Assembly: GCA_015232315.1 (NCBI GenBank) | Contig: JADFZZ010000001.1 | Coordinates: 62,001 to 126,000 of the forward strand | Length of the DNA stretch: 64,000 nt | Origin: SAR324 cluster bacterium | GTDB lineage: Bacteria; SAR324; NAC60-12 | Direction: 5' to 3' | Part shown: positions 3,395 to 5,856 of the stretch, piece after piece | How positions within the stretch are numbered: position 1 is the first letter of the stretch | How the letters are laid out: every line of letters begins with the position of its first letter | Position numbers and translations under genes: made by a program | Notes under the pieces: generated by a model | Databases searched by the model: none | The model's input: the letters and a program-made list of their open reading frames with translations, nothing else | Told to the model about the DNA's origin: nothing

Positions 3395-4766
3395 GGCTCA
3401 TACTCAACAATTGATTAATACCTTCAGCTTCAATCTTACGCGTCATTGCGGGATTCCTGCCGGCAGTCGTGGAATTGTCTGTGTCAGTGGCGGTTCTGAT
3501 TCTGTGGCGTTGTTGTTATTGCTGCTGGAATTGCGCCAGTCCCTGAATCTGGAATTGCATGTGCTGCATTTTAATCATGGATTGCGTCCGGAATCGCTTG
3601 AAGAACAACAATTTGTTGAACAACTGGCACAAAAACACAATATTTCCTGCACCGTAAAAATTTCGGATAAGCTGATTTTAAAAAAAACAGCCCTTCAGGA
3701 ACAGGCCCGAACTTGGCGTCTTCAAGAAGCACAAATTCTGCGGAAAATCATTCAAGCCGACTGGATTGCCACAGCCCATCATCAACAGGATCAGCTTGAA
3801 ACGCTATTGATGAAATGGTTACGAGGGGTTCACCTCTCTCATTTCAGCGGAATGGCCTGGCGCAGAGACCATCAGATTCGTCCGTTGCTGAACATCAGCA
3901 AACAGGAACTTCAGGATTATTTAAAGGACCGTCATCAATCATGGAAAGAAGACGCGTCCAATCAATCCTCCAAATATCATAGAAACAGGGTGCGACTCGA
4001 ACTTCTGCCGCTGTTGAATGACTTGGCTCGTGAAAATCTTGACGCGCGTCTTCAAGACATGAGCGAACAAAGTCAGCAACTGAAAGAGTTGCTTGAGTCG
4101 TTACCAGTTCCCGCTGGACTCAGCATGGAGGCCTTGTCATGGAATCTTGAGGAATGGCACACACTTCCTGTTTTACAGCGTGATCATCTTCTGCATCAAT
4201 GGATTTTGATCAGAACAGGAGAGCATCTGACTTATGCGAAATTAAAGTTAATCCAACGGGAGCTTTTTACAGACAGGATCTCAAACGAGCATCAACTTTC
4301 CAGTCATTGGAGACTATTGCGTCAGAACAGAACCCTGAGTTTGCGATCAACAGTCACGTCATCCAACACGATGATTTCAACTGAAAATGGAATTCAGCTC
4401 ATCCACCCGTCAGCATGGATCGTTCAAATCACTGTTTTGTCTGGCAATGTAACGATGTCACCGGCAGAAGGAATTGTGCTGTATAACATTCCGCCCGGAA
4501 CATGCCTCGAACTCCGAAACAGACTTCCCGGAGATGTCTTTCATCCACCTTGGAAGGAACATCCGGTAAAAATCAAAGATTTTTTAAGAGATCAGCACAT
4601 TCCCCTGGAGCAACGGGATTTCCTGCCACTGATCGTGGTGGATGGAAGGGTCGGGGCCATTTATCCGCGTTTCCGCTCTATCCGCCAGGAAGCGAGCCAT
4701 TCTTCGTATCCTCCTGTTTTGATCCGTATTGAGCGCAGGCATTATTTCCCCAAAAACTGCCTGTGA
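3393..4766 (+). CDS. tilS: tRNA(Ile)-lysidine synthase
   Basis: TilS uses ATP and lysine to modify the wobble cytidine of the AUA-reading isoleucine tRNA, making it specific for AUA. The 457-residue product has the N-type PP-loop motif SGGSDSVAL near residue 32, the HFNHGLRP motif, the TAHHQQDQ stretch and the YHRNRVRLELLP signature. The C-terminal domain contains IKDFLRDQHIP and GAIYPRFRSIRQ. Met at 3393 was chosen because it lies about 25 residues before the PP-loop strand; the frame is open further upstream but that stretch covers the divergent gene. The last ten codons overlap, in another frame, sequence that reads as the start of the SpoIIE phosphatase domain. The natural TilS C-terminus may therefore have been altered by a deletion. 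Confidence 0.93.
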   Translation: MAHTQQLINTFSFNLTRHCGIPAGSRGIVCVSGGSDSVALLLLLLELRQSLNLELHVLHFNHGLRPESLEEQQFVEQLAQKHNISCTVKISDKLILKKTALQEQARTWRLQEAQILRKIIQADWIATAHHQQDQLETLLMKWLRGVHLSHFSGMAWRRDHQIRPLLNISKQELQDYLKDRHQSWKEDASNQSSKYHRNRVRLELLPLLNDLARENLDARLQDMSEQSQQLKELLESLPVPAGLSMEALSWNLEEWHTLPVLQRDHLLHQWILIRTGEHLTYAKLKLIQRELFTDRISNEHQLSSHWRLLRQNRTLSLRSTVTSSNTMISTENGIQLIHPSAWIVQITVLSGNVTMSPAEGIVLYNIPPGTCLELRNRLPGDVFHPPWKEHPVKIKDFLRDQHIPLEQRDFLPLIVVDGRVGAIYPRFRSIRQEASHSSYPPVLIRIERRHYFPKNCL

Positions 4767-5162
4767 TTCCTAATGTGGCATTGGCCGCGTTTTACCGGTC
4801 AGCCTCAGAAACAGGGGGCGACTGGTATGGCATTTTTGACAAGTTCAAGGATCATGTTTTTTTTCTGATTGGAGATGCCACAGGGCATGGTGCTCCGGCG
4901 GCTCTTGTAACGGCAGGAGTGTGTGCCTCTTCCCGGATGCTGGAAGAATTATGGAGCAGAACAGAACATGTTTCTTCGCCCGCGGAGGTCATGACTTATC
5001 TGAATAAATCGGTCTATGACAGTGGACATCCGCACTTTATGATGACTTTTTTTATTTTGTCGCTCAATTTGAACACATTGACCATCACTTATTCTAACGC
5101 CGGTCACAACTTCCCATTTCTCATCCGTTCCAGTTCAGAAGAACTTGTACCGTTACTGAATA

Positions 5163-5170
5163 AAAATCCC
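5163..5170. repeat. Target-site duplication, left copy
   Basis: The 8 bases AAAATCCC immediately precede the MITE and are repeated exactly at 5309-5316. Removing the element and one copy restores the phosphatase frame. Confidence 0.9.
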
Positions 5171-5308
5171 GTAAGCGTTCAGCCGTCAGTTATCAGTTTT
5201 CAGGAATTCTCAAGGCCTGGAAGCCAAACGATATTTTCTGCTATTGAGTTATAATGCTTCTGAAGCGCATAAACACTGAAAGCTGAATACTGAAAGCTGA
5301 ACGCTTAC
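5171..5308. mobile_element. 138-bp MITE inserted in a phosphatase gene
   Basis: The element begins GTAAGCGTTCAGC and ends with the exact reverse complement GCTGAACGCTTAC (13 bp); weaker complementarity continues about 12 bp inward on both sides. It is bounded by 8-bp direct repeats (5163-5170 and 5309-5316). It has no transposase and only short internal motifs, among them a tandem CTGAAAGCTGA. Ends starting GTAA together with 8-bp target duplications are characteristic of the IS66 family, so it was probably mobilised in trans by an IS66-type transposase (inference). No full-length relative or second copy was found in the window. Confidence 0.88.
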
Positions 5309-5316
5309 AAAATCCC
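5309..5316. repeat. Target-site duplication, right copy
   Basis: AAAATCCC, identical to 5163-5170, directly follows the right end of the MITE. Confidence 0.9.
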
Positions 5317-5856
5317 TTGTTAGGGTACAGTTTGGAAACCCGGTATGTTGAAGATGAGACAAGGAGGGAATGGGGGGATAAATTGTTTTTTTATACCGAT
5401 GGACTTATTGAAAACATGAATGAACAGGAGCAATGCTGGAATCAAAGAAATTTGCGGACGTTTCTAAAACAGCACGCTTCTGATTCAGCCTCCATGCTAA
5501 CCGGCAAACTGGTTCAAAATATCCAGGAGTTTTACGGTAGCCATCCCATGAATGATGATGTGAACCTCCTCTGCGTTGAACTCAATCCTGACGCTGTCGG
5601 AGGACAAATCTATTGATCCATCAGTTATTAAAAATGGAGCTATGATGATTCACCGGGTTTGGGGGGTGTCACGTAGGGGCAGAACTATTATCCCTCTGGT
5701 TTCTCTGGCTGACGGAAGTACCTCCCGGTTGAAAGTTTCCTTGTGGGGAGCCGATTTTTAAAGCATCACTAATGAACGATAAAAGAATAACATGGAAACT
5801 TTTACCAAAAAATATCTTCTATTAATATGTCCCTCATGTGGGTCTCATGTAAGAAA

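Follow-up and report, generated by a model that had tools for sequence, protein, structure and literature searches.

Within the window, a 64,000-nucleotide stretch of DNA, a gene for a SpoIIE/PP2C-type phosphatase is interrupted by a short element that is well supported as a mobile MITE (Table 1). The initial annotation had described a 138-bp element with exact 13-bp ends and an 8-bp duplication, and the sequence at 5163-5316 agrees. The 13-bp ends are perfect inverse copies, an imperfect inverted match reaches 33 bp at 85%, and the single-strand hairpin of the element is much stronger than that of shuffled sequences (z -6.6). Its sole long reading frame is read-through from the host gene, which ends at 5254, 84 bp into the MITE.

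Table 1. Features of the interrupted phosphatase gene and of the inserted element, in window coordinates.
Feature	Position	Strand	Basis
Host gene 5' part, SpoIIE/PP2C-type phosphatase after a linker remnant only (AQALFPQKLPV)	4733..5170	+	
Target-site duplication, left copy AAAATCCC	5163..5170	.	sequence read directly
MITE, 138 bp, without transposase gene	5171..5308	+	sequence, copies across genome
Left terminal inverted repeat GTAAGCGTTCAGC	5171..5183	+	
Left iterons, four 7-bp units GTTCAGC CGTCAGT TATCAGT TTTCAGG	5177..5204	+	sequence; plan matches 126 ends elsewhere
Family-specific core, not common to compared elements of other genomes	5205..5274	+	
Right iterons, from right end inward: GTTCAGC TTTCAGT ATTCAGC TTTCAGT	5275..5302	-	
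Right terminal inverted repeat GTAAGCGTTCAGC	5296..5308	-	
Target-site duplication, right copy AAAATCCC	5309..5316	.	
Host gene 3' part, same SpoIIE domain (profile 105-191 after 3-101)	5317..5616	+	

Excising 146 bp restores the host frame, as had been proposed, and joins ...LLNKNP to LLGYSLE... in one open frame. An uninterrupted site is also present in the same genome, in a paralogue rather than in a strain allele without the insertion. This paralogue, at locus L259, is a 737-aa PAS/GAF-SpoIIE protein (the PAS/GAF label comes from reading the N-terminal half rather than from a family scan). Its phosphatase domain, at C48:13847-14578, has 79% protein identity and ~81% DNA identity with the window gene. 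The paralogue reads straight through CTGAATAAAAATCC at the position of the MITE; the 5' and 3' parts of the window gene overlap by the duplication and align to it without gaps once the 146 bp are omitted. A stop immediately precedes the linker remnant AQALFPQKLPVIPN with which the window phosphatase frame opens, whereas the paralogue has ~490 more residues at this end, and the upstream tilS gene (TilS_C recognised) runs across this linker out of frame, ending in GTGA, the only plausible phosphatase start. The tilS tail and the linker AQALFPQKLPV thus overlap out of frame at 4733-4766, with a GTGA stop/start overlap. Together, the position of the linker, the longer paralogue, and the tilS overlap indicate that the MITE probably inserted into a duplicate that lay against tilS and had already lost its 5' part. 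The earlier description of both gene halves as intact therefore holds for their open frames, but probably not for the phosphatase as a whole. SpoIIE-type phosphatase domains are matched 56 times in this genome and 41-61 times in three relatives (G004, G005, and G010), with at most 10 matches in other members of the same family.

A search of the genome (5.25 Mb, 88 contigs) with the element and its ends found that both recur. There are ~40 copies of the 138-bp MITE, 86-100% identical and with four identical over 138 bp, while the end 13-mer occurs 91 times at no more than one mismatch, compared to twice for a reversed control. Among the ~40 copies with paired ends, the 8-bp flanking repeats are perfect in 27 and match at 7/8 positions in 3. 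One of the four identical copies, at C48:4446, has no matching duplication and may for this reason be a recombinant. The element is therefore short, without a transposase gene, dispersed in multiple copies, bounded by inverted ends and duplications at many loci, and absent from an empty site in a paralogue, as is characteristic of MITEs. The copy number, the 27 perfect duplications, and the empty site bear out the initial view of a mobile, non-autonomous MITE, and the excess of the 13-mer over its control, the ~40 copies, and the uninterrupted paralogue argue that the observation is not due to chance. The insertion had further been called recent; the four identical copies and the 27 duplications are consistent with recent activity and suggest that the family has moved recently. 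Mean pairwise divergence is 7% across 26 full-size copies.

Copies of 131, 124, and 117 bp differ from the 138-bp form mostly by whole 7-bp units, mainly in the right arm, and those of 108, 78, and 41 bp have other internal deletions, with a perfect duplication in each. The 41-bp copy (L070 1858-1898), which is barely more than two ends within a perfect 8-bp duplication, represents either a minimal mobile unit or a deletion in place. Target duplications are 80% AT, compared to 55% in the loci. Open frames of 150 or more codons contain 10 of 31 sites, compared to 79% of positions picked at random in these loci. Because the random positions come from the flanks, and open frames were counted regardless of real genes, the size of this bias is approximate while its direction is clear. 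The MITE clearly favours AT-rich, mostly intergenic sites, which makes its insertion in the phosphatase gene unusual.

In each arm of the element GTAAGC is followed by four 7-bp nnTCAGY units, except that the innermost unit on the left ends in G. Scanning genome contigs with GTAAGCGTTCAGCYDTCAGY returned at least 120 stretches from many phyla, and the groups with this end plan, among the matches listed, include deltaproteobacteria, Nitrospinae, Methylomirabilota, Chloroflexi, Cyanobacteria, and Acidobacteria, as well as others. Four loci in this set, all from Bacteroidales, match by chance within an rnf-like coding gene and were rejected as elements. Of 126 foreign ends among the matches listed, 89 have TCAG again at offset 23 and 53 at offset 30, while past the selected part no other offset has it in more than 6; four units are found in 53 of these ends, three in 35, and two in 25. 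TCAG is conserved but the nn positions are not, and foreign ends turn unrelated past ~position 34. Pairing with an opposite end across a duplication that matches at 7/8 or 8/8 positions succeeded in 26 cases among the matches listed (three elements counted from both sides), compared to 0-1 with shuffled duplications. Nearly all of these elements measure 114-237 bp, and one of 982 bp, with a weak end, is doubtful. Foreign interiors, clustered after trimming 34 bp from both sides to exclude the right-hand iterons, are alike only within a genome, and the core of the window element matches none of them. In the phylum of the source organism, the end pattern was matched 50 times in this genome and not at all in 51 others.

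Individual foreign elements add to this range of forms. One (L133 1878-2086) has more than 10 TATCAGC units in a row in one arm and a perfect 8-bp duplication, and in unrelated lineages (loci L089, L094, L116, L128, L135, L151, L152, L159, and L160) element lengths cluster at 145-148 bp, several of these elements having a AAAACAAGG-like sequence beside the iterons. In the literature, the end sequence occurred in no text, and the few matches to shorter iteron strings were in unrelated papers. We tentatively suggest, at somewhat less than even odds, that these elements constitute a class of MITEs with GTAAGC and ~four nnTCAGC iterons at each end, patchily distributed over phyla and with unrelated interiors, in which the iterons are a putative binding array for the transposase.

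The initial annotation had assigned the element to the IS66 type. As in that family, its ends begin with GTAA and its duplication is 8 bp, and positions 8-12 of GTAAGCGTTCAGC fit the TTCAG/TTCAC inner end by which elements of the single-ORF (ISBst12-type) branch are recognised. In the loci that we retrieved, single-ORF IS66 elements of 1.5-1.8 kb, with termini defined by 8-bp duplications, start with GTAAnnnTTCAG or GTAACnGYTCACC. These include a 1684-bp Moorena element (GTAASCGTTCAGG, position 5 being both G and C within the one element), further Moorena copies (GTAAGCATTCAGG and GTAAGGATTCAGG), two loci from the phylum of genome G061 (GTAACTATTCAGC), and ISUnCu16, ISAs21, and an Oscillatoria element (GTAACnGYTCACC), all with 8-bp duplications. 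ISDge4, of the ISBst12 group, has the end GTAACTGCTCAGCA and an 8-bp repeat (PMC12898284), and both ends of a Pyrinomonadaceae IS66 read GTAAGCGTTCAGTTGG, with no matching duplication. Three-gene IS66 elements of 2.2-2.7 kb have another inner end, mostly GTAAGCGnnnnATnAACC; those of 2.2-2.5 kb (with room for tnpA, tnpB, and tnpC) start with GTAAGCG and mostly go on with nnnnATnAACC. The strongest single likenesses are a 12-base identity, GTAAGCGTTCAG, between the MITE end and the IS66 of Moorena (L212/L219) and Pyrinomonadaceae (L220), and both of these genomes also carry the MITE end pattern. From these termini, the MITE very probably belongs to the single-ORF branch of IS66 and not to the three-gene branch. 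The assignment rests on the ends and the duplication length, since the search for an autonomous partner sharing these ends gave none.

We therefore favour, with a probability of about 0.8, a non-autonomous MITE moved in trans by the DDE transposase of a single-ORF (ISBst12-type) IS66. Such a transposase would recognise GTAAGC and then the TTCAGC-type motifs at each end, with the iterons acting as repeated binding sites. It would cut AT-rich, mostly intergenic DNA with an 8-bp stagger and join the element to the cut ends, and repair would then produce the 8-bp duplication. The copy in the window landed in the probably 5'-truncated paralogue of the PAS/GAF-SpoIIE phosphatase gene and ends its frame.

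The iterons might instead have no role in transposition, as products of slippage or recombination that spread with copied ends, which would be compatible with an IS66 origin. The stepping of size classes by whole 7-bp units and the L133 arm with its long run of units fit this explanation, but most of the 126 foreign ends hold two to four units in which TCAG is kept while nn varies, around unrelated interiors. Drift alone would not be expected to hold the iterons across phyla in this way, and we consider this explanation unlikely.

The full-length IS66 with the same ends, for which a search had been proposed, was found neither in this genome nor among the IS66 loci retrieved elsewhere. Within the genome no full-length element carries the MITE ends, orphan ends being decay products or chance, and the GTAASCGTTCAS sites outside MITE copies and fragments all either stand alone or terminate another IS66. 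This absence is weak evidence, because the genome's own IS66 genes lie at contig ends (C45 and C65) or are broken by stops (C24); their ends read GTAACCGTTCAAG (C24) and GTAACCGTTCACC (C65). Nor did the IS66 loci in 44 carrier genomes, or those in relatives, have iteron ends. Among 395 genomes sampled from the G061 phylum, IS66 was matched in 94, and of the 8 that carry the end pattern it was matched in 2. MITE presence was not associated with IS66 presence in this sample, which does not support the IS66 reading, although eight fragmented carriers are few. IS66 fragments beside iteron ends in L214 and L227 were rejected as partners, the ends belonging to separate complete MITEs nearby, as was L275, which has a lone end. 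In IMG/VR the end pattern was unmatched and no IS66 relative was confirmed.

It is rather improbable that the MITE belongs to a transposase family not yet recognised, with GTAAGC ends and an 8-bp duplication, and resembles IS66 by coincidence or convergence. Iterons are absent from every IS66 end seen, several carrier genomes lack any IS66 match, and no transposase-like protein cluster recurred inside the ends across 150 loci, where there were just ordinary neighbouring genes. Conversely, two end-pattern genomes contain IS66 elements with the 12-base identity, the duplication length is that of IS66, and carriers are largely fragmented MAGs, from whose assemblies multi-copy IS are often missing. 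A cellular structural or regulatory repeat (REP/ERIC-like or an RNA gene) would suit the strong hairpin and the intergenic bias, but it is contradicted by the 27 perfect 8-bp duplications and the paralogous empty site and is highly improbable. Rfam returned no family for the MITE, only sub-threshold miRNA models, and promoter and terminator searches gave no match.

The single insertion is that of an ordinary MITE, and it is the iteron plan across phyla, with no transposase found, that is of broader interest. A signature of GTAAGC, nnTCAGC repeats, and an 8-bp duplication could annotate many unexplained short repeats in environmental genomes. The end plan also raises the testable questions of whether a single-ORF IS66 transposase binds tandem 7-bp sites, and why iterons are found in the small elements and not in the IS66 seen.

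Among known systems, ISDge4, ISAs21, ISUnCu16, and the Moorena 1.68-kb element are like the MITE in their GTAAnnnTTCAG/C ends and 8-bp duplication, whereas the MITE differs in its 138-bp length, its lack of a transposase gene, and its four 7-bp iterons per arm, which are unseen in these IS. Three-gene IS66 elements (for example, L379, L383, and L384) share the GTAAGCG start and the 8-bp duplication, but have the inner end nnnnATnAACC without TTCAGC and measure 2.2-2.5 kb. MITEAba12 and prokaryotic MITEs generally are short and often intergenic, with inverted ends, a target duplication, and high copy number (PMC10969869, PMC6382973); the window MITE shares these general traits, although its ends differ, and IS66 is absent from the text of the review of prokaryotic MITEs (PMC10969869). 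The BrickBuilt MITE of Porphyromonas gingivalis also contains tandem repeats and is intergenic (PMC4596501). In BrickBuilt, however, a 23-nt minisatellite lies in the body of an element of one species (PMC4596501), whereas the arms of the window MITE are made of 7-nt units that are found in many phyla.
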